64,000 bases of DNA from positions 434,001-498,000 of the forward strand of contig NZ_JACHBY010000002.1 of assembly GCF_014200495.1 (NCBI RefSeq), given 5' to 3'. Every line of letters begins with the position of its first letter. Positions within the stretch are counted from its first letter, which is position 1. The translations under genes were made by a program, and so were the position numbers. The stretch is from Mucilaginibacter geliditolerans (GTDB taxonomy: Bacteria; Bacteroidota; Bacteroidia; Sphingobacteriales; Sphingobacteriaceae). Under the pieces are notes generated by a model that saw only the letters and a list, made by a program, of their open reading frames with translations, searched no databases and had not been told where the DNA came from. Of the stretch, positions 3,219 to 60,525 are shown in pieces.

Positions 3219-4079
3219 ATGGTAGTGGGCGAAAGTTTAAGTGGAGTTATTATTTTATACAATCCTGATAAAGATGTAATTGGCAATATCACCTCATATC
3301 TCGACACTCTGTCCTGCTTATACGTAATAGACAACTCGGAATCAATTGATATACAAATAGTTGATTCGATTAATACATTAGGCAATAAAATAAAATATCT
3401 TAGTTTAGGTGGTAATCTTGGTGTAGCTACAGCCCTTAACACCGGGTGTAATATGGCATATGAGGCTGGCTATAAGTGGGTTTTAACGATGGATCAGGAT
3501 TCTCTTATGGATAATGGCTTTTTTGATATTGCAAAGCCATTACTTTCTGATTTCCAAAACGCAATAATTGCCGCAAGTTACAACAGCTTTTTTTATAAAC
3601 CAGAAACCAGCATTTATCCCGGCTTCATTTCGATAGGTACAGTTATTACTTCTGCTAATTTACTTAATCTGGGGGCTTGGAAAAGTTTAAATGGCTTTTG
3701 CGAAAAACTCTTTATTGATGAAGTAGATAATGAGTTTTGCATCAGAGCTATAAAAGCAGGTTATAAAATTCAAGCAACTAAAAACATATACTTAAAACAT
3801 AATTTGGGAATTAAGTATTTTAAAAAAAATATAATAACCAGGCAAACTCGCCAATTAACAACGCATTCACCGGCGAGGGTGTATTACATGACCCGCAATA
3901 ATTTATTTTTATGGAAAAAATACTTTTTTACCAATCCTGGATTAATTTTTAATCGAATAAAAAATTTAATAAGGCTTGTTGGCGAAGTAACTTTTTACTA
4001 CCCCGATAGAATAACATATTACAAATATATTGCTAAGGGCACATATGATTTTTTAATATCAAAGTATGGCAGAATTTAA
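3219..4079 (+). CDS. GT2 glycosyltransferase, rhamnosyltransferase-like
   Basis: A 286-residue GT-A glycosyltransferase. The N-terminal GVIILYNPD (about residues 9-17) is typical of the rhamnosyltransferase branch of GT2, followed by the VIDNS motif and the catalytic-region acidic motif TMDQDS (about residue 90). The later part has the acceptor-side acidic stretch FIDEVDNEFCIRA (about residues 166-178). No membrane segments are evident, so it probably works on the cytoplasmic face of the inner membrane, adding a sugar to the lipid-linked repeat unit. Its last 14 bases overlap the next glycosyltransferase gene, indicating translational coupling. The exact donor sugar is unknown. Confidence 0.86.
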   Translation: MVVGESLSGVIILYNPDKDVIGNITSYLDTLSCLYVIDNSESIDIQIVDSINTLGNKIKYLSLGGNLGVATALNTGCNMAYEAGYKWVLTMDQDSLMDNGFFDIAKPLLSDFQNAIIAASYNSFFYKPETSIYPGFISIGTVITSANLLNLGAWKSLNGFCEKLFIDEVDNEFCIRAIKAGYKIQATKNIYLKHNLGIKYFKKNIITRQTRQLTTHSPARVYYMTRNNLFLWKKYFFTNPGLIFNRIKNLIRLVGEVTFYYPDRITYYKYIAKGTYDFLISKYGRI

Positions 4080-40375: not shown

Positions 40376-40388
40376 AAACCCAAAAAGT

Positions 40389-46300: not shown

Positions 46301-49300
46301 CCCTATTATGGCAAGCGGAGCTGTTGACCCCAACTATACCATCAGTTACGTGGCGGGGACACTAACCATCGGTAAAGCAAATCTGACCATTACAGCCGAT
46401 AATCAAAGCATCGCTCACGGAGCTGCTATACCGGTATTAACAGCCAGCTACAGCGGTTTTGTTAATGGCGACAATGTGGCAAGCTTAACAACCGCACCAA
46501 CATTAAGTACAACAGGAACGTCAGCATCATCGGCAGGTAGCTACCCTATTATTGCAAATGGGGCAGTTGACCCTAACTATAACATCAGCTATGTGGCGGG
46601 TACATTAGCTATCGGCAAAGCGCTGTTAGTTGTTACGGTAGACAATCAAAGCTCAGTTTATGGATCAGCATTGCCCACGCTTACTGTAAGCTATAGCGGC
46701 TTTGTAAATGGAGATAACGAGGCAAGCCTGGCCACTCAGCCTACAATAAGCACTACGGCCACTGCTGCATCCCCGGCAGGCACTTATGCCATTACTGCAA
46801 GCGGCGCAGTGGATCCTAATTATGCTATTAGTTATACACCAGGTACTTTAACTATTAGCAAGGCAGCATTAACAGTTACTGCAGATAACCAAAGCTCAAC
46901 CTATGGAGCTGTTCTGCCAACACTAACAGCCAGTTACAGCGGTTTTGTGAATGGTGATAACGCGGCAAGCTTAACCACCGCACCAACCATAACAACTACA
47001 GCCACAGCTGCATCACCGGCTGGCAGCTATCCAATTAGTGTTAGTGGCGCTGTGGATGCGAACTACAATATCAGCTATGTTGCCGGCACATTAGCCATTG
47101 GCAAGGCAGCATTAACCATAACTGCTGATAACCAAAGCTCAACCTACGGCTCGGCTTTACCTGTGCTTACAGCAAGCTATACTGGTTTTGTTAATGGCGA
47201 TAATGCAGCTAGCTTAACTACGGCACCAACTTTAAGCACGACGGCTACTTCAGCATCGCCGGCAAATACTTACCCAATAAATGTAAGTGGTGCGGTGGAT
47301 GCAAATTATACCATCAGTTACGTGACTGGCACTTTAACCATTGGCAAGGCAAACCTTACCATCACGGCTGATAACCAAAGTGTAGCCCACGGTGCCGCTA
47401 TACCAACACTGACTGCAAGCTACAGCGGTTTTGTTAATGGCGATAACGTATCAAGTTTAACCACTGCACCAACATTAAGTACAAACGGCACGTCAGCATC
47501 ACCGGCAGGTAACTATTCAATTACTGCAAGTGGCGCGGTTGACCCTAACTATAATATCAGCTATGTAGCAGGAACATTAGCTATTGGTAAAGCGTTGCTC
47601 ACTATTACAGTTGACAATCAAACTTCCGTATACGGCTCGGCACTACCAACGCTCACTGTAAGCTATAGCGGCTTTGTAAACGGCGACAATGCAGCAAGCT
47701 TAACCACTGCTCCTACAATAAGCACAGCTGCCACAGCTGCATCACCTGCAGGCGCTTATCCTATTAATGCCAGCGGCGCGGTGGATCCTAACTATACCTT
47801 TGTTTATGTTCCAGGTACGTTAACTATCAGCAAAGCAGCATTAACCGTTACCGCAGACAACCAAAGCTCAACCTATGGCACAGCATTACCAACGCTAACA
47901 GCTAGTTACAGCGGCTTTGTTAATGGCGATAACGCAGCAAGTTTAACCACGGCGGCAACCGCAAGCACTACGGCTACATCAGCATCACCGGCAGGCAGCT
48001 ATCCTATAACAGCAAGCGGAGCAGTTGATCCGAATTATACTATCACTTACGCGGCAGGCACCTTAACCATTGGCAAGGCAGCATTAACCATAACGGCTGA
48101 TAACCAAAGCTCAACTTATGGCTCGGCGTTACCTGCGCTTACAGCAAGCTATACTGGTTTTGTTAATGGCGATAACGCTGCAAGCTTAACAACGGCACCT
48201 ACGTTAATCACGACGGGAACTGCTTCATCACCTGCCGGCAGCTATCCTATAACAGCAAGCGGAGCTGTGGATGCTAACTATACCATCAGCTATGTAGCGG
48301 GTTCATTAACCATCGGCAAGGCTAACCTTACCATTACCGCCGACAACCAAAGTATAATCCACGGAGCTGCCATACCTGCTTTAACAGCCAGCTACAACGG
48401 CTTTGTTAATGGCGATAATGTTGCAAGCCTAACCACAGCACCAACTGTTACTACAACGGGCACATCCGCATCACCGGCTGGTAATTACCCTATTACTGCC
48501 AGCGGCGCTGTGGATCCTAACTATAACATCAGCTATGTGGCAGGTACTTTGGCAATAGGTAAATCTGCGCTGGTTGTAACTGTTAATAACCAAACTTCTA
48601 CTTACGGTTCTGCAATACCGGCCCTAACCGTTAGCTACGCTGGTTTTGTAAATGGCGATAATGCATCAAGCTTAACTACTGCGCCAATTATCACCACCAC
48701 AGGTACCGCATCGTCACCGGCAGGCATTTACCCAATAAGTGCAAGCGGAGCTGTCGATCCTAACTATAACATTACTTATGTAGCGGGTACATTAACTATT
48801 GGTCAGGCAGCTTTAACCATTACTGCCGATAATCAAAGCTCGGTATATGATGGTGCTATACCGGCATTAACCGCAAGCTACAGCGGTTTTGTAAATGGTG
48901 ATAACACCGCAAGCCTAACCACTGCGCCAGCAATTACTACGGCAGGTACTTCTTCATCGCCGGCAGGAACTTACACCATAACTGCAAGCGGGGCTGTAGA
49001 TGCTAACTATGCAATAACTTACATAGCAGGCACCTTAACTATCGGCAAAGTACCATTAACTATAACAGCTAATGACCAGACCACCACTTACGGATTGCCG
49101 CTACCAGCCTTTACCGCCGCCTACACCGGCTTTGTAAATGGCGATAATGCTGCCAGTTTAACAACTGCGCCAAGTATTACTACTACAGCCACCAGCACAT
49201 CTCCCGTAGGCACCTACCCTATTACAGCAAGCAGTGCGGTTGATGCCAATTATACCATCAGCTATGTAGCCGGTACTTTAACCGTAAAACAAGCTGTCCG

Positions 49301-50090
49301 TACGCTTACCTTTAATGCTTTACCGGTAGAAACCTACGGCAGTCCGGACTTTGACCCAGGCGCAGTAGCCAGTGATGGTGAAACTGTACTATATACCAGT
49401 AGTAACCCTGCTGCAGCTACCATTGTAAATGGTAAAATACATATCACCGGCGCAGGGAGCACTTTGATAACCGCAACTTTGGCTACCAATCCAAACTATA
49501 CCACAACGCCAACGGCAAGCCAGGGCTTAGTGATCAATAAAGCTAATCAAACCATCAGTGTGCTGAGTATACCAACCTTAATAAAGGGCACTCAGTATGA
49601 CCTAAGCGTGATCACCTCCAGTTCGGGCCTGCCGCTTACCTTTACTGTAAGCGACCCTACCATAGCCAGTGTAAACGGGCAAACATTAAATGCCCTGCAC
49701 ATAGGCTCAACCAGCTTAACGGTATCACAGCCGGGCGATAATAACTATAACGCCGCATCAACTACAGGAGCGATAATTACGGTTACCGATAATGCCGGGG
49801 ATGAGATCATAGTACACCAGGCTGTTTCGCCAAATGGTGATGGCATTAACGACTTCTTCTTAATAGAGGGCATCAAAAACTATCCGGATAACCAGGTGAC
49901 CATTGTGAACCGCAATGGCGTAAAAGTATACCAGACCCGCAGCTATGATAATGCCTACCGCGTTTTTGATGGCCGTTCAAATATCACAGGAACCTTGCAG
50001 CAGGCCGGAACATATTTCTACCTGCTTGAATATACAGTTAACGGAGAGAGCAAACGTAAAACAGGATTTTTAGTACTAAAATATCAGTAA
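40389..50090 (+). CDS. Giant MBG-repeat cell-surface protein with T9SS type B sorting domain
   Basis: A 3233-residue secreted protein. I start it at the ATG at 40389, which gives a clean signal peptide (MKTLFTKGFYIVSAIILFVG, cleaved after ARA). Residues about 28-345 look like an NHL/SMP-30-type beta-propeller (repeats of the kind ALAVDASDNIYAVVY). A fibronectin-III-like unit and bacterial Ig-like domains follow, containing TIDKTAPT motifs. Residues 865-2970 are 26 tandem MBG-type repeats of exactly 81 residues. A short bacterial Ig domain comes next, then the T9SS C-terminal domain (about 3140-3233; VSPNGDGINDFF to GFLVLKYQ). Expected role: a long stalk-like adhesin carrying the propeller at its tip. 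Its stop codon overlaps the start of the PorP/SprF gene, its probable secretion or anchoring partner. Confidence 0.92.
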   Translation: MKTLFTKGFYIVSAIILFVGIALPARAQFTSITLSTNALATALAKDASGNIYALQTDASGTQGEVVKYTNGTGSPTVIYDGFPDNDNAGDYGTGLIVTSNGDVYLTTDNDGPTVPYGNIIKLKFNGGTSYTASVYQTGTASVGYYSALAVDASDNIYAVVYNVNADGGNSGIGAYEVVKYAAGSAANSAGTVLYDKLDAAGLLSGDYYTAPSGLTVNSLGDVYVADSFDNDNANNDGGHIYKLTKATSYAVSTISTNQYVTSLAVDASNNLYATQVNSFPGYALVRYTGDTGTPTTIYTGLSSDGSDFPYGLAIINPTNIYVNDGGTNGGTDNQGNIIQLIGTPATQATNVTFTNTTATGTTASWTNGSGASRAVFIALASTGSPAPVNSTTYTANTTYASGTQVGGSGWYCVYNGTGSTVNITGLTAGNTYRVMAVEYNGPAGSQNYLTTAGTNNPNNVTPVSLTAISSINLVTASPTNATSVQYTVTFGAAITGLTTSNFSLTTTGGISGASISSIAGSGTTYTVTANTGTGDGTIALSLANATSLSPGISTTLPFAGQAYTIDKTAPTANGLIYASNNTTNSAFAKIGNTITLTFGSSETVQTPTVTIAGHTITATSTSVNSYLASYTMVAGDAEGRIPFTLSLTDPAGNQTTYNDVAAGDDITFDKTAPTITIGSPSVSSTSTGPVTYTVTYADVNFNTSTLVAGNVSLITTGTATGTVAVTGSGTTYTVSITSISGTGTLGISIGAGTASDLAGNLAPGSGPSATFIVAPALIPQTITFNPLPTKTYGNADFAPGATSTNNGTPAITYSSDNTAVATIVSGNIHIVAAGTAHITASQAGDGTHSAATDVTQSLTVNQAPLTITAANQSSTYGAALPALTVSYSGFVNGDTQASLTTAATASTTATAASPAGNYSINTSGAVDPNYIITYVPGTLTIGKAALTVTADNQSSTYGAALPALTVTYSGFVNGDTQASLTTAATASTTATAASPAGNYSINTSGAVDPNYTISYVPGTLTIGKAALTITADNQSSTYGAALPTLTASYTGFVNGDTQASLTTAPTLTTTATTASPANTYSITASGAVDPNYTITYVAGTLTIGKATLTVTADNQSSTYGAALPALTVTYSGFVNGDTQASLTTAATASTTATAASPAGNYSINTSGAVDPNYTITYVPGTLTIGKATLTVTADNQSSTYGAALPALTVTYSGFVNGDTQASLTTAATASTTATAASPAGNYSINTSGAVDPNYTISYVPGTLTIGKAALTATADNQSSTYGAALPALTVTYSGFVNGDTQASLTTAATANTTATAASPAGNYSINTSGAVDPNYTISYVAGTLTIGKANLTITADNQSITHGATIPTLTASYSGFVNGDNAASLTTAPTLTTTGTSASPAGSYPINASGAVDPNYNISYVAGTLAIGKTLLVVTVNDQSSVYGSALPTFTVSYSGFVNGDNAASLTTAPTISTTATAASPAGSYPITASGAVDPNYAISYTPGTLTISKAALTVTADNQSSTYGAALPALTVTYSGFVNGDTQASLTTAATASTTATAASPAGNYSINTSGAVDPNYTISYVPGTLTIGKAALTVTADNQSSTYGAALPALTVTYSGFVNGDTQASLTTAATASTTATAASPAGNYSINTSGAVDPNYTISYVAGTLTIGKANLTITADNQNIAHGAAIPTLTASYSGFVNGDNAASLTTAPTLSTTATSASSAGNYPITASGAVDPNYNISYVAGTLAIGKALLTITVNNQNLVYGSVLPTLTANYSGFVNGDNIASLTSLPTITTTATAASPVGTYTITASGAADPNYNINYVLGTLTIDKAPLTITADNQSSTYGAALPTLTTSYSGFVNGDNAASLTTAPTLSTTATSASPAGSYPITASGAVDPNYTITYAAGTLTIGKAALTVTADNQSSIYGSALPALTASYSGFVNGDNTASLTTAPTLTTTGTASSPAGSYPIMASGAVDPNYTISYVAGTLTIGKANLTITADNQSIAHGAAIPVLTASYSGFVNGDNVASLTTAPTLSTTGTSASSAGSYPIIANGAVDPNYNISYVAGTLAIGKALLVVTVDNQSSVYGSALPTLTVSYSGFVNGDNEASLATQPTISTTATAASPAGTYAITASGAVDPNYAISYTPGTLTISKAALTVTADNQSSTYGAVLPTLTASYSGFVNGDNAASLTTAPTITTTATAASPAGSYPISVSGAVDANYNISYVAGTLAIGKAALTITADNQSSTYGSALPVLTASYTGFVNGDNAASLTTAPTLSTTATSASPANTYPINVSGAVDANYTISYVTGTLTIGKANLTITADNQSVAHGAAIPTLTASYSGFVNGDNVSSLTTAPTLSTNGTSASPAGNYSITASGAVDPNYNISYVAGTLAIGKALLTITVDNQTSVYGSALPTLTVSYSGFVNGDNAASLTTAPTISTAATAASPAGAYPINASGAVDPNYTFVYVPGTLTISKAALTVTADNQSSTYGTALPTLTASYSGFVNGDNAASLTTAATASTTATSASPAGSYPITASGAVDPNYTITYAAGTLTIGKAALTITADNQSSTYGSALPALTASYTGFVNGDNAASLTTAPTLITTGTASSPAGSYPITASGAVDANYTISYVAGSLTIGKANLTITADNQSIIHGAAIPALTASYNGFVNGDNVASLTTAPTVTTTGTSASPAGNYPITASGAVDPNYNISYVAGTLAIGKSALVVTVNNQTSTYGSAIPALTVSYAGFVNGDNASSLTTAPIITTTGTASSPAGIYPISASGAVDPNYNITYVAGTLTIGQAALTITADNQSSVYDGAIPALTASYSGFVNGDNTASLTTAPAITTAGTSSSPAGTYTITASGAVDANYAITYIAGTLTIGKVPLTITANDQTTTYGLPLPAFTAAYTGFVNGDNAASLTTAPSITTTATSTSPVGTYPITASSAVDANYTISYVAGTLTVKQAVRTLTFNALPVETYGSPDFDPGAVASDGETVLYTSSNPAAATIVNGKIHITGAGSTLITATLATNPNYTTTPTASQGLVINKANQTISVLSIPTLIKGTQYDLSVITSSSGLPLTFTVSDPTIASVNGQTLNALHIGSTSLTVSQPGDNNYNAASTTGAIITVTDNAGDEIIVHQAVSPNGDGINDFFLIEGIKNYPDNQVTIVNRNGVKVYQTRSYDNAYRVFDGRSNITGTLQQAGTYFYLLEYTVNGESKRKTGFLVLKYQ
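42981..49298 (+). repeat. 26 tandem 243-bp (81-residue) MBG repeats
   Basis: Each unit runs from L-T-(I/V)-T-A-D-N-Q through (Y/H)GAALP-x-LT-x-x-YSGFVNGD and GAVDPNY-x-ISYV to GTLTIGKA. The array length (6318 bp) is exactly 26 x 243, so no unit has an insertion or deletion. Units 1-6, 9 and 10 are nearly identical (FVNGDTQ type). From unit 7 a four-unit cycle appears: HGA-type units at 7, 11, 15, 19 and 23, each followed by a VYGS-type unit at 8, 12, 16 and 20 (a TYGS variant at 24). This gives a 972-bp higher-order repeat. Confidence 0.95.
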
Positions 50091-51025
50091 TGAAGATGAA
50101 ATTGAAACCTATAAACAATGGTATTACCACAACGCTGGTAAGCATCCTGTTTTTTTTAACATTATCCGCAAACGTACATGCGCAGAATAGTCAGTTCTCC
50201 TATACGCAGTATATGGATAACCTTACGCCTTTTAATCCCGCCTATTCGCTGCTGGATAAAGCGGCATCAGTAAATACATTAGCCCGCAGGCAATGGCTGG
50301 GGGTTGATGGCTCGCCTACAACTTTTATGGCCAATGTCAATGTTCCTATCGAATCTATTGACGGGGCAGCGGGCTTGATCGTAATGAATGACAAGTTCGC
50401 CATAGAACACCAGACCGAGGTAAACGCTTATTTTGCAAAAGCGATACAACTTAGTCCGAAGAACTTTTTGTCGGTATCATTAAACGCAGGGATACGTAAC
50501 TATGTAGCCAACTATTCAAGTCTGGATGCCAATGACCCTGTATTTGCCAGTGATGTGAGGGAAACCAAGCCCAATTTAGGCTTCGGTGTGATGTTTTATA
50601 CAGATTGGTATTATGTTGGTATATCTGTGCCCGAATTATCGATCACCAGCCTCGGAACAGCATCTATACAGGATAATAACAACTTCAAGAACCACTATTA
50701 CTTTTCAGGGGCTTTCATAGCCAATATTGATGAAGATGTGGCCGTAAAACCTGCCACATTGGTATCCTATGTACAAGGGGTGCCGATGATTGCTGATATT
50801 TCGGGAACAGTGATCTTCAAACAGGTTATCGGTCTTGGCATAAACTACCGTACCAATAATGAAATGGCGGGTATCTTTACATTGAACGTAAGCAATTTCC
50901 ACATAGGCTATAGCTACCAGTTCGGACTGGCATCTGATAACCTGGGTGGCTTTAATATGCCAACGCATGAAATTACCCTGGGCTATCGCTTTGGCAAAGG
51001 ATCAGATAAACCTAAATTATTATAA
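50090..51025 (+). CDS. PorP/SprF family type IX secretion outer-membrane protein
   Basis: A 311-residue outer-membrane beta-barrel of the PorP/SprF family. Signal peptide to about residue 31 (LSANVHAQ), then the family motif FSYTQYMDNLTPFNPAYSLL, RRQWLGVDGSPTTFMANVN, and strands ending in YRFGKG near the C-terminus. In Flavobacterium, SprF is needed for secretion of its neighbour-encoded giant adhesin SprB; this gene starts on the last base of the MBG giant gene (TAATG overlap), the same cargo-partner arrangement. Inference: it anchors or helps export the MBG protein. A strong terminator ends the operon. Confidence 0.92.
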   Translation: MKMKLKPINNGITTTLVSILFFLTLSANVHAQNSQFSYTQYMDNLTPFNPAYSLLDKAASVNTLARRQWLGVDGSPTTFMANVNVPIESIDGAAGLIVMNDKFAIEHQTEVNAYFAKAIQLSPKNFLSVSLNAGIRNYVANYSSLDANDPVFASDVRETKPNLGFGVMFYTDWYYVGISVPELSITSLGTASIQDNNNFKNHYYFSGAFIANIDEDVAVKPATLVSYVQGVPMIADISGTVIFKQVIGLGINYRTNNEMAGIFTLNVSNFHIGYSYQFGLASDNLGGFNMPTHEITLGYRFGKGSDKPKLL

Positions 51026-51214: not shown

Positions 51215-52159
51215 TCAAATACTTTGCTCAACTACTTCTTCCTCCGGTTGTAATTGCGTAACTGCGGGCTCTTTTATTGTTTTCTGCTTGCGGAATAGTA
51301 ATTGTTGGATATTGTGATTAAACCTATGCCGTAAAGTGTAATAACTTTTGAACCACTTATATTTTAATAACACCTTTTCATCAAAACGCTTTACGGAAAA
51401 GGCATGCTGCAAAAAATAATCTTTAGGATAATCATAATACAGGCCCCAGTTCTGAGGCTCATTGCCCGGCGCAAAACCCGGATCATATACCGTTCCGAAC
51501 AGGTGATCCCATACGGAAAACTTGGTTGAAAAATTAGCATGAAAAACCTCCTCATAATTGGCATGGTGCCACAAGTGCAGCTCAGGCGAATTGAGGAAAT
51601 ATTTTAGCTTGCCCATTTTAACATTGATATTGGCATGGATAAACATACCAAACATGGCATCAAGCATGGCTTTTATAGGTACAACTATAGGGTCGGCACC
51701 TAAAATAATTATAGGTGCAAATTCTATGGTTTGGTTAATCAGTATCTCCACAATATGTGATCTTGATCCCGATAGGAAATCAATTTGTTTACCGGAATGA
51801 TGCGCCTCATGTGTGCGCCAAAAGAATTTACTGGAATGCTGGAACCTGTGAAAAAGATAGATATACAGATCGTGCGTAACCAAAAAGAATAGCACCTGTA
51901 CAGCAATTGGCCAGTGCGACACAAATTGAATATGCGACCAGTCGAAGCTCTTTTGTACCGGCATTATGATATAATCAAAGATGACGATCTTTAAAAAATA
52001 GCTCTGTATAATGGTATACCAAACCAGGTCAACCCAAAAACCCTCCCTGAAAAAGGGCAAGCCTTTACGATAGGGTGAGATCCGTTCCCACGCTATGATA
52101 AAGACCGCCCAACAGGCAAGTATGATAGTGGTTATGGTAACTACTTTCTCCTGTGTCAT
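51215..52159 (-). CDS. Sterol desaturase/fatty acid hydroxylase family membrane protein
   Basis: A 314-residue integral membrane di-iron protein. The His clusters of the FA_hydroxylase family are present: HDLYIYLFHRFQH, WRTHEAHHS (HEAHH), and LHLWHHANYEEVFHANF, between about four membrane helices. Family members hydroxylate or desaturate lipids, sterols, or sphingoid bases. Its ATG begins on the base after the stop of the HAD-NeuB fusion gene, so it is coupled to the sugar-acid operon and is its last gene. It may modify a lipid to which the glycan is attached; this is inference from position only. Confidence 0.88.
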   Translation of the reverse strand: MTQEKVVTITTIILACWAVFIIAWERISPYRKGLPFFREGFWVDLVWYTIIQSYFLKIVIFDYIIMPVQKSFDWSHIQFVSHWPIAVQVLFFLVTHDLYIYLFHRFQHSSKFFWRTHEAHHSGKQIDFLSGSRSHIVEILINQTIEFAPIIILGADPIVVPIKAMLDAMFGMFIHANINVKMGKLKYFLNSPELHLWHHANYEEVFHANFSTKFSVWDHLFGTVYDPGFAPGNEPQNWGLYYDYPKDYFLQHAFSVKRFDEKVLLKYKWFKSYYTLRHRFNHNIQQLLFRKQKTIKEPAVTQLQPEEEVVEQSI

Positions 52160-53593
52160 TTAGCCAATTAAAGGTTTTTCCTTATACTCATCACTGATGT
52201 TCACCCGCAATCTTTTCATTGGCCCCAGTTCTGATTCGTAAACTTTTTTTACACCATCGCCAGCGGCAATTTCCACATCGCGAATGTCACGCACCAGGCG
52301 TTGCAGGCCCTGCGGCTCAACAGATGCAGCATGATCCGACCCCCACATAGCACGGTCAAGCGTAAAGTGCCTTTCAACAAAGGTTGCGCCCATGGTAACA
52401 GCCGCTACAGTAGTTGCCAATCCCGTTTCATGTCCTGAATACCCGATCGGTATGCCCGGAAATCTATGCTCAAGCGTTTGGATCATTTTAAGGTTAAGTT
52501 CCTCGGGCTTGCAAGGGTATGCTGAAGTTGAATGCGCTACAAATAGCGGGTAATCCGGACTGAAAGCGTTGATGAATGCCAACGCATTTTCAATCTCTTT
52601 CATGGTCGACATGCCGGTTGACAGCATCAGCGGGCGACCAGTTTCCAGTATCCTTTCTATCAATGCAAAGTCGGTTAACGAAGCTGATGCCAGTTTGTAC
52701 ATCACCGTATCAAACTGCTCCATAAAATCCACTGAGGGCACATCCCAGGTTGATACGAACCAATCGATGCCTGCTTTTTTACAATATTGATCGATAGTTG
52801 CATATTCGGCTATGCCGAACTCTGTTTTACGTTTATAGTCGATATAGCTCATACGTCCCCAAGGCGTATCGCGCATTACTTCCCACTGGTCTTTGGGCAC
52901 ACAAATTTCGGGGGTACGTTTCTGAAATTTAACCGCGTCGGCTTTTGCAGCAACTGCTTCATCAATCAGTTTTTTAGTGATTTCTAATGAACCATTATGG
53001 TTGATGCCTATCTCTGCAATAATATAGCAGGACTCTCCCTTCCCTATTTTGCGACCATTGTTAAGGGTAATCACCTCGTTTGCTAACTCAAATACTTCAC
53101 TTTTAAGTTCGATGATCAGCTCAGCAAATTCACGAAAACAACCTTCGCCGCCTTTGCTCTCGCATACATAATCAACCTGCGCTTTTATACCGGGCAAAGC
53201 ATTGGCTGGGCTTGCGGTAAAGCCCACCAGCTTCATTATCTCAAGATCATTATAATCGTCGCCAATATAAGCGATCTCCTCGCCTGTTAATTGCAGGCGT
53301 GATAGCATTTCTTTTAATACAGCCGGTTTATTCTTAGCCAGTAAATGCAATTCGGTGATCTGTAATTTTTGAGCTCTTTTAACTACTGATGGCGATGCCT
53401 CACCTGTTATAATTGCAGTTTCAATACCCAACAGTTTGCGCAGGCGTTCAACCCCCATGCCATCCTGTATATTGAATTTCTTCAATAGTTCACCTTCTTC
53501 GCCATAGTATACGCCTCCGTCAGTTAAAACGCCGTCACAATCGGTGATCAATAATTTAATGCGTGATGCTTTTTCTTGTAAGATATTTTTCAT
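52160..53593 (-). CDS. Fusion of KdsC-like HAD phosphatase and NeuB-family ulosonate synthase
   Basis: A 477-residue bifunctional protein. Residues 1-165 are a KdsC-type (C0, capless) HAD phosphatase: LLITDCDGVLTDGG (Asp18, Asp20), IITGE, and YIGDDYNDLEIM. Residues about 185-465 are a NeuB/SpsE-type PEP-dependent sugar-acid synthase: AEIGINHNGS, AVKFQKR, LASASLTDFALIE, STGMST, HSTSAYP, GYSGHE and ERHFTLDR. The usual C-terminal SAF (antifreeze-like) domain is missing. In Bacteroides thetaiotaomicron the equivalent KDN-9-phosphate synthase and phosphatase are separate proteins; here synthesis and dephosphorylation of a 3-deoxy-ulosonate phosphate would be on one chain. The substrate is unknown and may come from the transketolase, aminotransferase and SDR upstream. 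Confidence 0.87.
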   Translation of the reverse strand: MKNILQEKASRIKLLITDCDGVLTDGGVYYGEEGELLKKFNIQDGMGVERLRKLLGIETAIITGEASPSVVKRAQKLQITELHLLAKNKPAVLKEMLSRLQLTGEEIAYIGDDYNDLEIMKLVGFTASPANALPGIKAQVDYVCESKGGEGCFREFAELIIELKSEVFELANEVITLNNGRKIGKGESCYIIAEIGINHNGSLEITKKLIDEAVAAKADAVKFQKRTPEICVPKDQWEVMRDTPWGRMSYIDYKRKTEFGIAEYATIDQYCKKAGIDWFVSTWDVPSVDFMEQFDTVMYKLASASLTDFALIERILETGRPLMLSTGMSTMKEIENALAFINAFSPDYPLFVAHSTSAYPCKPEELNLKMIQTLEHRFPGIPIGYSGHETGLATTVAAVTMGATFVERHFTLDRAMWGSDHAASVEPQGLQRLVRDIRDVEIAAGDGVKKVYESELGPMKRLRVNISDEYKEKPLIG

Positions 53594-53607
53594 GATCTGG
53601 TTGATTT

Positions 53608-54411
53608 TTAAATTGCTGTCCAGCCACCGTCTACCACAAGGTTTGCACCGGTCATGTAAGCTGATGCTTCGCTGGCCAGAAAAATAAGCGCACCCTGGTA
53701 GTCGTTTGCCTTGGCCATACGGCCCAATAATGTTTTTGCTGAATAATTATGAATAAAAAACTCATTCTGCCCATTCTCCACGCCGCCCGGCGAGAGAGTA
53801 TTCACCCTCACCCCTTTATCGCCCCAGTATGCCGCTAAAAAGCGTGTGAAGTTGATAATAGCTCCTTTGGTAACCGGGTATGCTGCCGACTTATAAAAAG
53901 TTTGCTCACCGCATTCATTACGGTAAATAGTTTGATCGGGGCCAACCATGCCATAGGTTGATGCTATGTTGATGATGCTACCGCTGCCCTGCTCAGCCAT
54001 TGCCGAACCAAATACCTGAGAGCATAAAAACACACCGGTTATATTAACATCCAGCGATCTTTGGAAAACATCCAGCGGATAATTCTCAAAAGCCGATAGA
54101 TCTTTCGCCAATGCCGGGTTCTCGAACATATCATTTATAGCCGCATTGTTTACCAGTATATCGATGGAACCATATTTGGCTGTTACCTCTTTCAAGACAT
54201 TGGTAACAGATATTTTATTGGTGACATCAATACCAATGCCTATGTGCTGTGGCCCTAGTTCCTGTGCAAATTCGGCAGACTTTTGAGCGTTAACATCAGC
54301 AACCACCACATTCGCGCCAGCTAAAGCCAGTGCTTCACAGTGTTTTTTGCCAATGAGCCCGAGCGCGCCCGTAACAATAGCCGTTTTTTGGTGTAATGAA
54401 AACAAGTCCAT
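53608..54411 (-). CDS. Short-chain dehydrogenase/reductase (SDR)
   Basis: A 267-residue classical SDR: nucleotide-binding TGALGLIGKKH (residues 14-24), VVVADVN giving an acidic residue after strand 2 (NAD preference likely), NNAAIND (88-94), and the catalytic Ser151, Tyr178 and Lys182 in NIASTYG and YPVTK. The C-terminal VVDGGWTAI is usual. It lies between the aminotransferase (1 base upstream) and the HAD-NeuB gene (14 bases downstream). In sialic-acid-type clusters such SDRs reduce or oxidise a sugar or keto-sugar intermediate; here it probably acts on the precursor aldose or ketose of the NeuB reaction. Confidence 0.88.
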   Translation of the reverse strand: MDLFSLHQKTAIVTGALGLIGKKHCEALALAGANVVVADVNAQKSAEFAQELGPQHIGIGIDVTNKISVTNVLKEVTAKYGSIDILVNNAAINDMFENPALAKDLSAFENYPLDVFQRSLDVNITGVFLCSQVFGSAMAEQGSGSIINIASTYGMVGPDQTIYRNECGEQTFYKSAAYPVTKGAIINFTRFLAAYWGDKGVRVNTLSPGGVENGQNEFFIHNYSAKTLLGRMAKANDYQGALIFLASEASAYMTGANLVVDGGWTAI

Positions 54412-54412
54412 A

Positions 54413-55759
54413 TTAGCTGGCCAGTGTATTTTTTGGTTTGATGTTATAGTTGCTCACCTTACGGAAAACAGCCTCCAATACTTCGCCTTTCAGGTATTGC
54501 TTGATGTTGCCGCTTTCAATAGCCTCTTTTACAATCGGCAGCACATTGCGGTAAGCTAAAAGTGTATAATCAATATCCTCATCGGTATGGCTGTAGCACA
54601 TGTTATGGAAACCAGCCCATAGCACGCCGCGTTTTATCATTTCCTGCTGCATGAGGGTTTTAACCTCCAGCCCATTGCCTGCCTCAGGGGTAAACGTTAC
54701 CATAGTACGGCAATTAAAGCCGATACAATTGGTGTATTTATCCATACCCAGCTCAATGGCTAACTTGTTATAGCCATCTTTTAATAATGCCCCTTTTTCA
54801 TCAAGGTATTGCGGTACGTTTTTGTCAATCAATTCATTTATGGTAGCGATACAGGCTGCCAGCGATAAAGCCTCACCACCAAAAGTGGTATAGCTGAATA
54901 CCTTCGAATTAAAAAGCTCCATCACATCGGCCCTGCCGGTTAACAGGGCGATAGGCATACCGTTAGCGCAGGCTTTTGAGTAAACTACCAGATCAGCTTT
55001 TACATTAAAGTATTCCTGCGCGCCGCCAACAGCAATGCGGAAACCTGTCCACATCTCATCGAATATCAATAACGTTCCATTCTCTTTACATACTTCCGCC
55101 AACTCCTGTAAAAAACCTGGGGCCGGTTCCTGGAAGATAAATGGCTCCAATATTAAAGCTGCTACGGTTTCGTCAAGCGCTGCTTTTATCGATTCGATAT
55201 CATTGTACTCAAAAGTATAAGTCAGGTCCTGTACGGCTTCAGGCACGCCTGCATTACGACTGGTGATCCCAATATACCAATCGTGCCAGCCATGGTAACC
55301 ACAGCAAAATACCTTATCGCGCCCGGTAAATGCCCTTGCAACGCGGATGGCTGCCGAACATACATCGGCGCCGGTCTTTGCTATTTTTACAGCCTCAGCA
55401 TTGGGGATAACCTGCTGTACCAGTTCTGATAATTCAACTTCAAGTGGGTGCATCAGTGAAAAGGTGATGCCATCCTCCAGTTGTTTTTTTATCGCATTAT
55501 CAACAGCCGGGTAAGCATAGCCTAATGATACCGGGCCAATGGCCGCGTTAAAATCAATATATTCGTTCCCGTCAGCATCCCAAACATGCGACCCTTTTCC
55601 TTTTATCAAATATTTAGGTGCAACGCCTTTAGTAAACTGGCCCGGACCTTTGGCCAGGGTTTGGGTAACCGGTTTTTGCACATTAAGCGCGCGTTCATAT
55701 AATTTATTGGATTGGGTGATGTCGGGATAATTCTTGTTAAATGCTATTTTGTTAGGCAT
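54413..55759 (-). CDS. Class III PLP aminotransferase (glutamate-1-semialdehyde aminomutase-like)
   Basis: A 448-residue fold-type I enzyme. It shows the N-terminal DADGNEYIDFNAAIGPVSLGYAYP block of class III aminotransferases, KTGADVCSAAIRVARAFTGR for phosphate binding, YHGWHDWY, LIFDEMWTGFR (Asp234 for the PLP nitrogen) and the PLP Lys262 in YSKACANGMPIALLTGR. It resembles HemL in sequence, but the SKACANG motif and the operon context argue against a haem role. Probable role: transamination of an oxo-sugar or small aldehyde feeding the sugar-acid pathway. It lies 12 bases downstream of the transketolase C-terminal half and 1 base before the SDR gene. Confidence 0.87.
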   Translation of the reverse strand: MPNKIAFNKNYPDITQSNKLYERALNVQKPVTQTLAKGPGQFTKGVAPKYLIKGKGSHVWDADGNEYIDFNAAIGPVSLGYAYPAVDNAIKKQLEDGITFSLMHPLEVELSELVQQVIPNAEAVKIAKTGADVCSAAIRVARAFTGRDKVFCCGYHGWHDWYIGITSRNAGVPEAVQDLTYTFEYNDIESIKAALDETVAALILEPFIFQEPAPGFLQELAEVCKENGTLLIFDEMWTGFRIAVGGAQEYFNVKADLVVYSKACANGMPIALLTGRADVMELFNSKVFSYTTFGGEALSLAACIATINELIDKNVPQYLDEKGALLKDGYNKLAIELGMDKYTNCIGFNCRTMVTFTPEAGNGLEVKTLMQQEMIKRGVLWAGFHNMCYSHTDEDIDYTLLAYRNVLPIVKEAIESGNIKQYLKGEVLEAVFRKVSNYNIKPKNTLAS

Positions 55760-55771
55760 ATGGGGTATTTT

Positions 55772-56710
55772 TTATTCAGCGAACTGAGGTTTTAAAATTT
55801 CTGGTTGAATGTGGCTGGTTTGGTAGCCCAATATTGCTTCGGCAACCTGTTTACCGCTGAAGCCTTCGTGTTCAATTACAGCGGGCAGCAAGGCCGGTTT
55901 AAACCATTTTTCATTAAGTGCAAAAGGCAACACCCTTGCAGTTTTTTGATGCTTCAACAATACTTCGGCAACAATGGTATACAGGCCACCGGTAAGGAAA
56001 TGATCTTCAAGCGTTACGATCAGTTCGCTTTGGTCAACAGAATTCAAAATCGCCTGCTCATCAACAGGCTTAAGGCTACGCATATTGATGAGACCTACTA
56101 ATAGGCCTTCGCTCTTTAATATTTCAGTAGCGATCAACGCCTGCTCAAACAGCAAACCATAAGTAAGGATGGTTACATCAGTACCCCGTTCAATTACCTC
56201 GGCTTTGCCGGGCTCAAATGGCGCATGTACATAACTTGTTTTGCGGGTGTTAATGCGTGTATAAGCTGGCTTAGGCGATGCCCATATGGCAGGCATCATT
56301 TTAACCATATCATCCTCATCGGCAGGTGCAAAAACGGTCATGTTTGGGATGCCACGCATAATGGATACATCTTCAATAGCCTGGTGCGTAGGCCCATTGG
56401 CATCTGACAGTAAGCCCGGTATAAAGGCGCTTAATTTTATGGGTAATGATGGTATCCCGGCATCGGTGCGGATAAATTCAAATGCCCGCATGGATAAAAA
56501 AGAGGCCAGCGCATGTACAACAGGTACACGGTTGCGCAAAGCCAGGCCTGCCGCCGCGCCTATCATGGTTTGCTCAGTTATGCCGGTATCAATAAAACGT
56601 TTGCCCAATAACTGGGGCAGGTTACGTATCAGTGCACGGTTTTCGGCAGTCATTACGACGAAGCGTTCATTAGCCAGCGACAATTCAGTAAGTAATTCTT
56701 CGTATGACAT
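55772..56710 (-). CDS. Transketolase, C-terminal half (pyrimidine-binding and C domains)
   Basis: A 312-residue protein matching the second half of transketolase/DXS: RFIDTGITEQTMIGAAAGLALRN (pyrimidine-binding domain, with the catalytic Glu in ITEQ), GPTHQAIEDVSIMRGIPNMTVFAPADEDD, and a C-terminal domain VTILTYGLLFEQALIATEIL. Together with the adjacent N-terminal half it forms one ThDP enzyme. Split transketolases occur beside carbohydrate or secondary-metabolite genes rather than in the central pentose-phosphate pathway. Start is one base after the stop of the N-terminal half, so the subunits are made together. Confidence 0.9.
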   Translation of the reverse strand: MSYEELLTELSLANERFVVMTAENRALIRNLPQLLGKRFIDTGITEQTMIGAAAGLALRNRVPVVHALASFLSMRAFEFIRTDAGIPSLPIKLSAFIPGLLSDANGPTHQAIEDVSIMRGIPNMTVFAPADEDDMVKMMPAIWASPKPAYTRINTRKTSYVHAPFEPGKAEVIERGTDVTILTYGLLFEQALIATEILKSEGLLVGLINMRSLKPVDEQAILNSVDQSELIVTLEDHFLTGGLYTIVAEVLLKHQKTARVLPFALNEKWFKPALLPAVIEHEGFSGKQVAEAILGYQTSHIQPEILKPQFAE

Positions 56711-56711
56711 A

Positions 56712-57575
56712 TTATCTAACCACTAAAGTTTCTGATGTTAATTGAGTTGTGTGTTCGCCATGCAGTTCCTGTAACAGCTGCTCCACTTCACCGGCAGAGA
56801 AATTGCAGAACCAGCGGTCGGCGCGGGCCTGAATGCTTGGCAGGCCTTTACCTCTAATCGTATCGGCTATAACTACATTCAGTTTGCCTTCGGCGAAGGG
56901 ATATTTTTCAAATGCACGGCGCAGTTCGTTAAAATCATGTCCATCTATCCGGCTTACAGCAGCTCCAAAAGCAGTAAATTTATTATGTAATGGTTCCAGC
57001 GGGATCAAATCCTCTGTAGCCATATTGGCCTGGAATTTATTGCGGTCGATAACAAAAATCAGGTTATCCAGTTTATAGGCATTGGCCACCAAAACTGCTT
57101 CCCAACACGAGCCTTCGTTCAGTTCACCATCGCCCATAATGCATATTACTTTATTAGCGCCGCCACGGATCTTGATATCCATAGCAACGCCAATAGCTAC
57201 CGATGGCAAATGCCCCAATGAGCCGGAATGAAATTCAATACCCGGGATATGCGTGTTAGGATGCCAGTAGATGTGATCGTTTATGGATAAATGGTTGGCC
57301 AATCTTTCCTTTTCTATCAAACCCAATTCAGCAAAAGTGCCATACAGCGCAGGCACATCATGGCCTTTGGACAGGAACAGGTAATCGCGCTCAGGATCTG
57401 TTAAGTTATCTTTATGCAGGTTTAAAAATTCAGCATACAGGTAAACGATCATATCAACTGCCGATAATGAAGCCCCGGTAAAACATCCCCCATCGGTCGA
57501 CATTTTGATGATATGCTCCCGTACATTCAGCGCTATTGCCTCCAACTCTTTATTGTCGCGTATATTATTTTGCAT
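56712..57575 (-). CDS. Transketolase, N-terminal half (ThDP-binding)
   Basis: A 287-residue protein with the diphosphate-binding domain: SKGHDVPALYGTFAELGLI, HPNTHIPGIEFHSGSLGHLPSVAIG, and the ThDP/Mg motif GDGELNEGSCWEA (148-160, with Asp149 and Asn153), followed by VIDRNKFQ. It would pair with the C-terminal half encoded 1 base downstream to move a two-carbon ketol unit between sugars. In this operon it may build an unusual ketose or chain-extended sugar phosphate that is later aminated and condensed with PEP. Donor and acceptor cannot be read from sequence. Confidence 0.9.
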   Translation of the reverse strand: MQNNIRDNKELEAIALNVREHIIKMSTDGGCFTGASLSAVDMIVYLYAEFLNLHKDNLTDPERDYLFLSKGHDVPALYGTFAELGLIEKERLANHLSINDHIYWHPNTHIPGIEFHSGSLGHLPSVAIGVAMDIKIRGGANKVICIMGDGELNEGSCWEAVLVANAYKLDNLIFVIDRNKFQANMATEDLIPLEPLHNKFTAFGAAVSRIDGHDFNELRRAFEKYPFAEGKLNVVIADTIRGKGLPSIQARADRWFCNFSAGEVEQLLQELHGEHTTQLTSETLVVR

Positions 57576-57585
57576 ATTATTTAGC

Positions 57586-58398
57586 TTATTTATTGGCTGC
57601 TTTTTTTGTTTGATCAGCCGAGATAGTATTCAGTTCATTTAAGTGGTGCCTGTACCAGTTTACACCCGCATAGGCTGCATTCAGTTCGTATATCTCAGGT
57701 TTTTCAGTTATGAGATTGATGATATCATCGCAGGAAAAAGAAGGGTTTTGCGGGTACAACTCTTCATAAACACAATTAATAAATTCGTAGTCCTCCGGAT
57801 AATCAATAGTAAAACGGTGCAACATGGAGTAATCCAAACCCTTACCCCAGCTCACATTACCTATACTAAACTGTGCCGGGTTTTCCCATATGTAGGGCGT
57901 GGTATGTTCCAGTTCCAGAGGGCGTGTTGCCAATCGCCAGTTTTTTTCAAGACATGCCATAGTCATGATCTCCACATCATTGCCATCAGGCCAGGTAGCC
58001 GGGTGCAGGTTACTTACATAATCATATTTGCCGGGATCTTGAAAGAAAAAATCCAGCACCTCATCAATGATCTGCGGATCTATCAGCGGACAATCAGAAG
58101 GTATTTTTAGTACGATATCGGCATTATGTTTTACAGCCGACATGTAGTGCCTTTCCAGCAAATTATTGGCGCTGCCGCGATAACAGGTTATATTGATAGC
58201 AGCAGCCTCCTGTTCAATTACATTGTCTTCAGCGTTAACTGAAGTCGCTATAACAATGACGGCCTCATGCTTTATTAGCTGCAAGCGCTCCACCATTCGG
58301 GCCAGCAAGCTTTTGCCCAGCAAAGGCAGCATAACTTTGCCTGGCAACCTGCTTGAAGCCATGCGCGCCTGCACCACGATCAGTATATTTTGAGCCAT
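57586..58398 (-). CDS. SpsF/CMP-KDO-synthetase-like cytidylyltransferase
   Basis: A 270-residue nucleotidyltransferase: IVVQARMASSRLPGKVMLPLLG (residues 7-28, the nucleotide-binding loop with R-x-x-SSRLPGK), IATSVNAEDN, ADIVLKIPSDCPLIDPQIID (the metal-binding acidic site) and ELEHTTPYIW. This is the SpsF group (COG1861), related to CMP-KDO and CMP-sialate synthetases. It is expected to activate the sugar acid made by the HAD-NeuB protein with CMP. Located directly after the GT-B-like gene (no gap) and 10 bases before the transketolase genes. Confidence 0.87.
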   Translation of the reverse strand: MAQNILIVVQARMASSRLPGKVMLPLLGKSLLARMVERLQLIKHEAVIVIATSVNAEDNVIEQEAAAINITCYRGSANNLLERHYMSAVKHNADIVLKIPSDCPLIDPQIIDEVLDFFFQDPGKYDYVSNLHPATWPDGNDVEIMTMACLEKNWRLATRPLELEHTTPYIWENPAQFSIGNVSWGKGLDYSMLHRFTIDYPEDYEFINCVYEELYPQNPSFSCDDIINLITEKPEIYELNAAYAGVNWYRHHLNELNTISADQTKKAANK

Positions 58399-59457
58399 CT
58401 ATGCTTGAAAAACTAATTCTTCTTCGTGTTTGTAAACCTCTGCTGCCGCCTGGTATTTGTAGCGTTTTAAGAACAACTTTCTATTGCCATTAAACTCCAT
58501 ATAATCACGGCAAATACCCGCTATATTTTGGGCCGATGTACCCTGATTTTGTATCGGCATCAGCGCTTTTAATTGTTCACCATCAAACCAGGAGTATACC
58601 TTTTTACCCAAGGCAATACCTGTATACACCACTGTTGAGTATTGGGTGATGAGTTCGCTGCAATTAGCGATCATCTCATTGGTATTGCCTGTATGATAAA
58701 GTAATGTGCCTAAAGGAGCGTACCTCCTGATCTCCCTTTCAGCACGCTCAAAATTTTCATTTGGATGAAGCTTAAATAATAGCCGACGGCCATCAGCGAT
58801 CTTCACCGCTTCCTTAATAAATTCCGGCCTGTTCTCGTGCCTGAAGGTTTCGCGCATATCAGTAGTGGCCACCATTACATAATCGCGATACGGGAAATTA
58901 TTATCAGTAAAACGTTCCAGATTATCATAATTAGGTATACCGGTAACTATTATCCTGTTGCTATCGGTGCCGTTTTTTGTAAAAAAGTCCTTGTATCCTG
59001 TAGATGCCGCGCAGTATATATCACAAATATTTGTTGAACCATTTAATGATGTATTACCGGTTAAAGCAATGGGTAGGCTCAGTGTTTTAACAATACGGGT
59101 CATGAGTGTAGCCTTATCAATCATGCCTTCCTGTACCCATAGTGTTTTATTGTTTCGCAAACGGGCTGGCACTATCATGTCACTGCAAAAAACTACCAAA
59201 TCGTAGTTGTTTTTTTGTGCCTTGTAATCCATTTGCAGGTTATGGCTCTTTAGGTAGTTTTCAGTATTTTTTCTGAACTGGCCTGCAAGAGCGGTACCAT
59301 TTGCCAGGGGTGTATATTTTATAAGAAAATTAATAAACTTTGAATCAGTAAAAATCTGGCTGAACCAACAATCATACTCCGGTAATAAGGAAGCGATCTG
59401 GTGCATTTGAGAGGCCTGATTAAGGGATCCTGTAATGAATAAAATATTCTTTCCCAT
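58399..59457 (-). CDS. GT-B-fold glycosyltransferase-like protein, first gene of the operon
   Basis: A 352-residue soluble protein beginning NILFITGSLNQASQMHQIA, a GT-B-like N-terminal strand-loop that is also found in capsule glycosyltransferases and sugar 2-epimerases. In the second half, LLFKLHPNENFERAEREI followed by ELITQYSTVVYTGIALGKKVYSW resembles the nucleotide-binding C-lobe of CDP-glycerol/KpsC-type transferases (KLHP motif, S/T-x-V/T). I infer that it transfers the CMP-activated product of this operon onto a glycan or lipid, but the donor site cannot be proven by eye. A TANNTTTG-type element lies just upstream, so this is probably where the eight-gene operon starts. Confidence 0.65.
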   Translation of the reverse strand: MGKNILFITGSLNQASQMHQIASLLPEYDCWFSQIFTDSKFINFLIKYTPLANGTALAGQFRKNTENYLKSHNLQMDYKAQKNNYDLVVFCSDMIVPARLRNNKTLWVQEGMIDKATLMTRIVKTLSLPIALTGNTSLNGSTNICDIYCAASTGYKDFFTKNGTDSNRIIVTGIPNYDNLERFTDNNFPYRDYVMVATTDMRETFRHENRPEFIKEAVKIADGRRLLFKLHPNENFERAEREIRRYAPLGTLLYHTGNTNEMIANCSELITQYSTVVYTGIALGKKVYSWFDGEQLKALMPIQNQGTSAQNIAGICRDYMEFNGNRKLFLKRYKYQAAAEVYKHEEELVFQA

Positions 59458-59673: not shown

Positions 59674-60525
59674 CTATAATTGCTTAATACTCACAACCTT
59701 GGTTGATTTATCATTAATCAGGAACGTTTTTAATTCTTCCAGTTTATCAGTATTTATAAGGTCGACACCACAGTTTAATAAAGTCTTCCAAACAACGGTA
59801 TTCTCGGGCGATGCCCATAACCTGACTTTCCGATTAAACTTATGAGCAAAATTCACGAACGAGCAAAGCCGCTGCTTTTCCTGATCGGGCAATGCTCCAT
59901 CGCCCCGCCAGTTGAGTAGTTTGGAATACTTGCAGCTTGCCATCATATACATGTCGGTAAGGGTATCTTTCCGTACCAGCCGCAGGTCTTCATCTACAAA
60001 GGCAAACCGGGCATCTTCAGTACTTAATAACTTTTCGGGTTTATGACCAGATATTACAATGGTAACCGGCCCTATATGAATATTACCCTTTGAATAGCTC
60101 GACAGCATACCGCTATATTTCTGAAGCATATCCTTTAAAACCAGGTAAGTTTTATCAGCATCCGATTTTACATCAATCATCAGTGTAACCGAGTTACGAT
60201 ACCCCGGGTACACTTCACCATTATTTTTTAATACATGATCAAATAAGGGTTTCAGGTACAGCTCCTCAAGTGTGCGGTGATGGTTTAATACAGGCAGTAT
60301 ATGAGCTACGATGAGCCTGCCATCGCGCTCATAAACATCAGCCTCAATATAAGTATAACCATTATCGAGCGCATCCAGTAACGGCCGCTTATGCCAGTAA
60401 TCATTATGGGCAAACCCGTTTAATAATGGCACACATTGTGCTTTTGTATTTAATTTCAGGAAGAGGGTCAGTAAGGCGATCAGGAAAATTTGGGTGGGTA
60501 GGTTTGGGGTGTTAAATAAGCGCAT
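59674..60525 (-). CDS. Exported glycerophosphodiesterase/PI-PLC-like phosphodiesterase
   Basis: A 283-residue secreted protein with signal peptide ending near LKLNTKAQC. The catalytic TIM-barrel start is visible in FAHNDYWHKRPLLDALDNGYTYIEADVYERDGRLIVAH, with the two His (HND and VAH) and the E-x-D pair expected for the GDPD/PI-PLC superfamily. VTLMIDVKSD and FAFVDEDLRL follow. Family role: cleaving glycerophosphodiesters or a related phosphodiester outside the cytoplasm. It stands alone, on the opposite strand to the macroglobulin gene, 216 bases from the sugar operon. Confidence 0.82.
   Translation of the reverse strand: MRLFNTPNLPTQIFLIALLTLFLKLNTKAQCVPLLNGFAHNDYWHKRPLLDALDNGYTYIEADVYERDGRLIVAHILPVLNHHRTLEELYLKPLFDHVLKNNGEVYPGYRNSVTLMIDVKSDADKTYLVLKDMLQKYSGMLSSYSKGNIHIGPVTIVISGHKPEKLLSTEDARFAFVDEDLRLVRKDTLTDMYMMASCKYSKLLNWRGDGALPDQEKQRLCSFVNFAHKFNRKVRLWASPENTVVWKTLLNCGVDLINTDKLEELKTFLINDKSTKVVSIKQL

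Follow-up and report, generated by a model that had tools for sequence, protein, structure and literature searches.

What is made by an operon that encodes a NeuB-type synthase together with a transketolase-like enzyme and an aminotransferase, and where does the product go? The question is raised by eight minus-strand open reading frames (ORFs) at positions 51215-59457 of a window of Mucilaginibacter geliditolerans DNA, by which we mean the whole stretch of 64,000 nucleotides that was analysed (contig NZ_JACHBY010000002.1, positions 434,001 to 498,000). Read from 59457 down to 51215, the ORFs encode proteins of 352, 270, 287, 312, 448, 267, 477 and 314 amino acids (aa) and are separated by gaps of 0, 10, 1, 12, 1, 14 and 0 bases. 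This ORF map agrees exactly with a preliminary description of the locus, which had proposed an operon for a cytidine monophosphate (CMP)-activated ulosonic acid. The gene families named there were confirmed by Pfam and NCBIfam with three corrections: the synthase lacks a SAF domain, the aminotransferase does not belong to the HemL group, and the two transketolase-like chains form a diverged pair.

From this gene content we tentatively propose that the operon may encode a self-contained pathway that makes a 3-deoxy-ulosonic acid (probably an amino sugar), activates it as the CMP derivative and moves it to a membrane lipid. Formation of a CMP-(amino)ulosonate is the likely half of this pathway; a membrane lipid as the receiver is what we infer for the other half.

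Conservation and distribution of the operon

The aminotransferase was used to scan contigs, and by tblastn and on ORF maps the same gene order was found in most of the best 80 loci of 586 relatives, the aminotransferase being 82-89% identical to matches in loci titled Mucilaginibacter. The synteny envisaged in the preliminary description extends to other genera and phyla, where the order glycosyltransferase (GT)-SpsF-tktN-tktC-AT3-SDR-(HAD)-NeuB-hydroxylase recurs (tktN and tktC denote the two transketolase-like chains, AT3 the class III aminotransferase, SDR a short-chain dehydrogenase/reductase and HAD a haloacid dehalogenase-type phosphatase). Because of this recurrence the array is not a matter of chance. 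An ortholog of the aminotransferase (E <= 1e-130) was present in 53 of 395 genomes and 37 of 170 genera of the same phylum, and the SDR and NeuB genes came after it in 34 of 40 regions fetched from the ortholog-bearing genomes. They did not follow directly in the exceptions L112, L120, L121, L123, L132 and L141, in L120 lying several kb on. Given an ortholog in this share of genomes and the operon in most regions examined, surveys of glycans and lipids may have overlooked a sugar that many bacteria of the environment produce.

The operon was also found in loci titled Ignavibacteria, Chloroflexia/Anaerolineae, Myxococcales, Holophagales and Methylococcaceae. Four operon-bearing contigs (L050, L053, L057, L064) are titled Chloroflexia, Anaerolineae or Ardenticatenia, groups that are not known to have lipopolysaccharide (LPS). 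Both sources together gave 118 aminotransferase loci, of which 81 remained after dropping those at least 85% identical, a filter that also removed repeats between the 40 fetched regions and some of the best 80 loci. Of these, 59 reached from the GT to at least two genes past the aminotransferase. As these non-redundant loci were chosen to begin with the GT, its presence in 59/59 is by selection; the other genes called were SpsF in 57, SDR in 58, NeuB in 58, HAD in 46 (fused to NeuB in 6) and the hydroxylase in 45. In many loci a small multidrug resistance (SMR) transporter gene (PF00893; 22 of the 59) stands directly after the hydroxylase as a ninth gene, which is not adjacent to the operon in the window. 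In a Spirosoma telluris assembly (L013:6181-15067) several operon genes each lie in two frames, perhaps through sequencing error.

All tblastn matches to phage and plasmid sequences were below 60% identity. Among the five of 1569 plasmid records that were examined (L102-L106), a Methylomagnum plasmid locus (L102) carries the operon, a Shinella locus (L106) has the aminotransferase only, with no annotated NeuB nearby, and L105 is unannotated. The haloarchaeal plasmids L103 and L104 have no annotated NeuB; their aminotransferase is about 45% identical, and a DegT aminotransferase and a protein with a ceramidase-N domain are encoded near it.

The conserved order and families bear out the operon put forward in the preliminary description, and the cluster was not described among the matches listed in a full-text literature search, whose scope left out most subscription journals and all preprints. 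With the bacterial nonulosonic acid pathways (N-acetylneuraminic, legionaminic and pseudaminic acid), the operon shares NeuB-type condensation with phosphoenolpyruvate (PEP), CMP activation and a transferase. In contrast to them it has, among its eight genes, no epimerase, 4,6-dehydratase, DegT aminotransferase or acetyltransferase; the absence of the standard N-acetylglucosamine (GlcNAc) epimerase, dehydratase and acetyltransferase, already remarked upon in the preliminary description, was seen again with Pfam and NCBIfam. Instead it has a class III aminotransferase, an SDR and an enzyme dependent on thiamine diphosphate (ThDP), and its synthase is SAF-less. The Bacteroides pathway for 3-deoxy-D-glycero-D-galacto-nonulosonic acid (KDN; model NF058599) likewise combines a KdsC-type HAD with a NeuB synthase, but the HAD of the operon falls below the KDN-phosphatase cut-off and amine-forming enzymes belong to the operon core. 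Excerpts of PMC3438082 describe a synthase-phosphatase fusion in Leptospira interrogans. Synthase and phosphatase thus share one chain in both systems, the phosphatase being C-terminal there and N-terminal in the operon; the word 'transketolase' does not occur in the main text of that paper. Phosphorus-free lipid remodelling by PlcP and a glycosyltransferase is known as well, according to excerpts of PMC4796936. With this remodelling and with the OlsF/OlsAB ornithine-lipid systems the operon has in common a GT gene accompanied by phosphoesterase genes, and OlsF/OlsB-type genes adjoin it in several loci, whereas the donor in the operon would be a CMP-ulosonate. The combination of genes in the operon matches neither the Leptospira fusion nor PlcP/glycosyltransferase remodelling.

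Enzymes of the predicted pathway

Families, order and linkage of the genes are read directly from sequence, and from these we predict the reactions, the amine and the lipid as follows. Oxidation and amination of a sugar (phosphate) would fall to the SDR and the class III aminotransferase; the diverged ThDP enzyme, present in most lineages, would add or remove a two-carbon unit. The SAF-less NeuB would join an aldose phosphate to PEP, the HAD would take off the phosphate, and SpsF would form the CMP derivative of the ulosonate. The GT-B protein might then move the ulosonate to a common lipid, either diacylglycerol or an ornithine lipid or aminolipid that the OlsE-like protein has hydroxylated; the sugar lipid so formed would be acidic or zwitterionic. 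Where present, the SMR-family or LPG_synthase_TM protein might carry this sugar lipid across the membrane. The features are listed in Table 1.

Table 1. Genes of the operon and the associated upstream gene, in positions of the window
Feature	Position	Strand	Evidence
GT-B protein, probable CMP-ulosonate transferase, first operon gene	58399..59457	-	AlphaFold2 model, Foldseek, invariant motifs
SpsF-type cytidylyltransferase	57586..58398	-	PF02348 (CTP_transf_3) 92 bits; closest PDB chain 6oew, 150 bits
Transketolase-like N chain (ThDP-binding)	56712..57575	-	PF00456 (Transketolase_N)
Transketolase-like C chain	55772..56710	-	PF02779 (Transket_pyr) and PF02780 (Transketolase_C)
Class III aminotransferase, not a HemL	54413..55759	-	PF00202 (Aminotran_3)
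SDR oxidoreductase	53608..54411	-	PF13561 (adh_short_C2) 160 bits
Fused KdsC-type HAD phosphatase (residues 12-165) and SAF-less NeuB synthase (residues 189-459)	52160..53593	-	Hydrolase and NeuB in one frame
Membrane fatty-acid-hydroxylase-family protein	51215..52159	-	PF04116 (FA_hydroxylase) 92 bits
GDPD-like phosphodiesterase, upstream after a 216-base gap, associated, not core	59674..60525	-	PF13653 26.1 bits, just below cut-off 27

The NeuB part matched PF03102 with 256 bits (residues 209-449) and is the sole protein above the cut-off of this family in the source genome. Against NeuB_NnaB it reached 259 bits (cut-off 400) over profile positions 1-273 of 329, where the 477-aa protein ends, so that the C-terminal SAF domain is absent; in NeuB enzymes this domain helps to bind the N-acetyl group. 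A second model of the N-acetylneuraminate / pseudaminate synthase equivalogs gave 198 bits, below its cut-off of 340. By eye, unfused NeuB relatives likewise stop shortly past the barrel; the median length was 298 aa among 89 NeuB ORFs, a set filtered to less than 360 aa and hence free of fused or longer NeuB. The HAD part scored 155 bits with the KdsC-type model TIGR01670, above the cut-off of 107, and 154 bits with the KDN-9-phosphate phosphatase model NF058599, below the cut-off of 180. In 37 genomes of the same genus, the source genome included, one long HAD-NeuB match was found in 22 and a strong two-piece match in 5. The phage records LR756508.1 and MH319754.1 (marine or uncultured) encode a segment that shares about 52% identity with part of the operon NeuB. 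The SDR shows, by eye, YxxxK and a glycine-rich TGALGLIG stretch.

The aminotransferase had been called HemL-like, of which the kinship stands and the identity does not. Its nearest curated model was PRK06209 with 376 bits (cut-off 486), and it scored 242 bits with hemL (cut-off 527). In alignment with E. coli HemL the Arg32 column, which we take to be the carboxylate site, holds Lys, and the Glu406 loop, presumably carrying the catalytic Glu, is four residues shorter. Both score and residues rule out a glutamate-1-semialdehyde aminomutase. Orthologs also occur in other settings. In L080 (4425-13697) a 53% identical ortholog lies between an SpsF-like gene and a gene for a 356-aa NeuB-like protein, with what we take to be dehydratase- and DegT-like neighbours, and this setting suggests that the aminotransferase family may serve other ulosonate clusters too. 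L121 and L123 combine the ortholog with a transketolase-like pair and a presumably dienelactone-hydrolase-like gene, and in L132 and L141 it follows tandem ORFs of about 200 aa; none of these four has NeuB or the operon SDR nearby.

Together the two transketolase-like chains carry the ThDP, pyrimidine and C domains of the enzyme (PF00456, PF02779, PF02780), and among solved structures the split enzyme 6yaj/6yak comes closest to them. The preliminary description had taken them for an ordinary sugar-phosphate transketolase and for the defining step of the pathway; neither view was supported. In the aligned pairs of the window, L053 and L102, the TktA columns His26, His261, Arg358, Ser385 and His461 are all changed, while all three pairs retain His66, His100, Glu411, His473 and Arg520; L102 has Glu in place of Asp469, which the window and L053 retain. 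We take His26, His261, Arg358, Ser385, His461, Arg520 and Asp469 to be substrate-site residues. Aligned with the solved split transketolase, the window protein also has no His at the His26, His261 and His461 columns, and near the start of the split N chains a GGCF stretch stands, by eye, in place of TktA G-H. It appears that ThDP chemistry has been retained in the pair and that the acceptor site has changed, and since Arg520 and Asp469 are kept, some sugar (phosphate) is perhaps still bound. In L055, L060 and L149 a one-chain homologue takes the place of the pair; those of L055 and L060 keep His26 and have lost His261 and His461.

Within the 59 non-redundant operons the pair was called in 45, a one-chain form in L055 and L149, a 'partial' form in L050, where tblastn shows both chains, and none in 11. 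No operon-type transketolase was found elsewhere in 10 genomes of pair-less operons and the 6 genomes behind L032, L034, L046, L063, L066 and L073. The best matches in these 16 genomes were one-chain or fragmentary and 29-43% identical, compared with 65% for the operon copy in a control genome (L040). For these two reasons the core chemistry can probably do without a transketolase-like step; a housekeeping one-chain transketolase could still supply the product of the missing pair. Several loci without the pair (L034:2480-6806 and similar) have Rnf electron-transport genes next to the operon.

The 352-aa protein gave in Pfam only a sub-threshold match to Epimerase_2 (21.1 of 30.6 bits). Its AlphaFold2 model (mean predicted confidence, pLDDT, 92.4) has a GT-B fold and matched GT-B proteins in the PDB; Foldseek listed uridine diphosphate (UDP)-GlcNAc 2-epimerases and then TagF and a CMP-bound capsule synthase, with TM scores of 0.42-0.59. 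Q-E-G, H-P-N-E and S274 are invariant in 37 homologues, and resemble the motifs of bacterial sialyltransferases (E-G, HP, S/T). On the strength of model and motifs the protein is a probable CMP-ulosonate transferase. A NeuC-like epimerase was also considered and judged against, as the catalytic motifs of such epimerases were not visible in the sequence, no superposition having been made.

Lipid and phosphoesterase genes around the operon

The preliminary description had suggested that the GT may act on a lipid. This suggestion gains support from genes of three kinds: OlsF/OlsB-type genes nearby, frequent phosphoesterase genes, and LPG_synthase_TM genes before the GT; the lipid itself remains a matter of inference. 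The OlsB/OlsF domain PF13444 occurs in 19 of the 53 aminotransferase genomes, and among the 15 for which positions were available, 7 (G098, G116, G131, G158, G185, G300 and G409, of families f37, f51 and f55) have it no more than 8 kb from the aminotransferase. Random placement would give such closeness very rarely (binomial 5e-13, computed for 7/17, the correct count being 7/15), in a statistic that ignores shared ancestry within the three families. OlsF above its curated cut-off stands beside the operon in L032, L116, L117, L142 and L146, and a homologue of the L032 protein does so in L044, L054 and L038. Below the cut-offs, OlsA/OlsB-like pairs adjoin the operon in L133 and in the Methylomagnum locus L102, which additionally holds an LplT-annotated gene, and L119 has an OlsB-like gene paired with a PF01553 acyltransferase. 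An LPG_synthase_TM protein is encoded immediately before the GT in L133, L051, L112 and L078. These loci represent three lineages, since L051 and L112 share family f36 (L051 and L120 cover one contig region, and L120 is G152).

In various loci the operon is also bordered by phosphoesterase-type genes that belong to unrelated families. Homologues of the glycerophosphodiester phosphodiesterase (GDPD)-like protein are found at the same place in L004, L007 and L011, an Exo_endo_phos gene lies near the operon in L026, its cluster-mates and L051, and an alkaline phosphatase gene in L044. Several groups of metallophosphoesterases are also present, and this family (PF00149) accounted for 17 of 193 proteins at distance 1-2 (7/93 and 10/100) and for 1 or 2 of 129 at distance 5-6 (Fisher p 0.002-0.007). 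Tallies cover the 25 commonest families, and the distal count of at most 2 follows from absence there, with one case (L025) known. The sets began with 220 proximal and 142 distal proteins, reduced to 203 and 132 by dropping core genes, sequences with ambiguous letters and lengths outside 90-1200 aa, and to those scanned by leaving out by hand a further ten proximal and three distal long proteins. Unrelated families, e.g. Rnf and peptidase S66 genes, are also enriched near the operon by lineage. The commonest flanking metallophosphoesterase (L034:6996-7919, L133:2950-3855) had an anti-phage phosphoesterase as its best NCBIfam match, far below the cut-off. In L066, a Methylococcaceae-titled 11-kb contig, the best E. 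coli-type Pho box (3923-3940) lies 36 bases upstream of the GT ORF; no such box was found upstream of the first operon gene in L102.

Product, acceptor and other features of the window

For transfer to a lipid we count that the operon has a single GT and no polymerase or oligosaccharide-flippase family by Pfam and NCBIfam, and that it occurs on contigs titled Chloroflexia, Anaerolineae and Ardenticatenia. Several results weigh against the pathway as proposed. The neighbour statistics ignore shared ancestry, and many metallophosphoesterases belong to a single family from Ignavibacteria-type loci; the best NCBIfam matches of the flanking members, all below cut-off, included LpxH-type, cAMP-phosphodiesterase and anti-phage models. 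A Pho box was not enriched upstream of the GT, with a mean best score of 9.8 for 60 GT genes and 9.8 for 193 others, using the E. coli-type consensus, which may not fit these phyla. PF13444 was not enriched in genomes with the aminotransferase (19/53 versus 152/342 without), and the single PF13444 protein of the source genome is encoded on another contig. In addition, UDP-GlcNAc 2-epimerases take the top Foldseek rank for the GT model, the only NCBIfam match of the hydroxylase was OlsE (NF052566) with 105 bits, below the cut-off of 475, and the hydroxylase is absent from 14 of the 59 loci.

NeuB, SpsF and HAD enzymes normally serve surface glycans, and it is possible, if on balance doubtful, that the operon is a conventional surface-glycan cassette which places its CMP-ulosonate on LPS, capsule or a protein glycan and whose lipid-gene neighbours are incidental. 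The setting of the ortholog in L080, with the presumed neighbours named above, is in line with such a cassette, and Leptospira carries sugars of this type on surface lipoproteins, as far as the excerpts of PMC3438082 go. Against it, the operon encodes one GT and no export or polymerisation gene, lies on Chloroflexia/Anaerolineae-titled contigs and is linked to OlsF/OlsB in three families, and the sole glycosyltransferase among the 25 commonest flanking families was PF13506 (2/93 in one set and absent from the list of the other). Improbable to a greater degree is a route in which NeuB makes KDN-9-phosphate from mannose-6-phosphate, HAD and SpsF convert it into CMP-KDN, and the part played by the aminotransferase, the SDR and the transketolase-like enzyme is confined to decorating it. 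The score of the HAD with the KDN-9-phosphatase model, its fusion to the synthase and the absence of the domain that helps to bind the N-acetyl group would fit this route, but the HAD stays below that model's cut-off and NeuB below those of both synthase models matched. Moreover, the aminotransferase and SDR belong to the core in almost every locus, which makes plain KDN an improbable product. The position of the SMR gene directly after the hydroxylase gene in many loci would suit a product, either a soluble amino-ulosonate or a small conjugate, that this transporter exports; we consider this very improbable, as the SMR gene was called in 22 of the 59 loci and is not next to the operon in the window, the membrane hydroxylase is present in 45, and the GT in every selected locus.

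If the acceptor of the proposed pathway is indeed a lipid, sialic-acid-like sugars and phosphorus-free membrane lipids would be joined as fields, and there would be a mass-spectrometry target searchable in cultured Mucilaginibacter or Hymenobacter. It is rather unlikely, though worth stating, that the operon marks an unseen class of membrane lipid with a CMP-derived amino-ulosonic-acid headgroup, phosphorus-free and zwitterionic, standing beside ornithine lipids in Bacteroidota, Ignavibacteria, Chloroflexota, Myxococcota and methanotrophs, and in most loci a new subfamily of ThDP enzymes.

An Rfam scan of the window at gathering thresholds gave no match. At 40344-50090 the window contains an ORF of 3248 aa built of many near-identical repeat units, and the next ORF (50090-51025), which we take to be PorP/SprF-like, follows directly after it.

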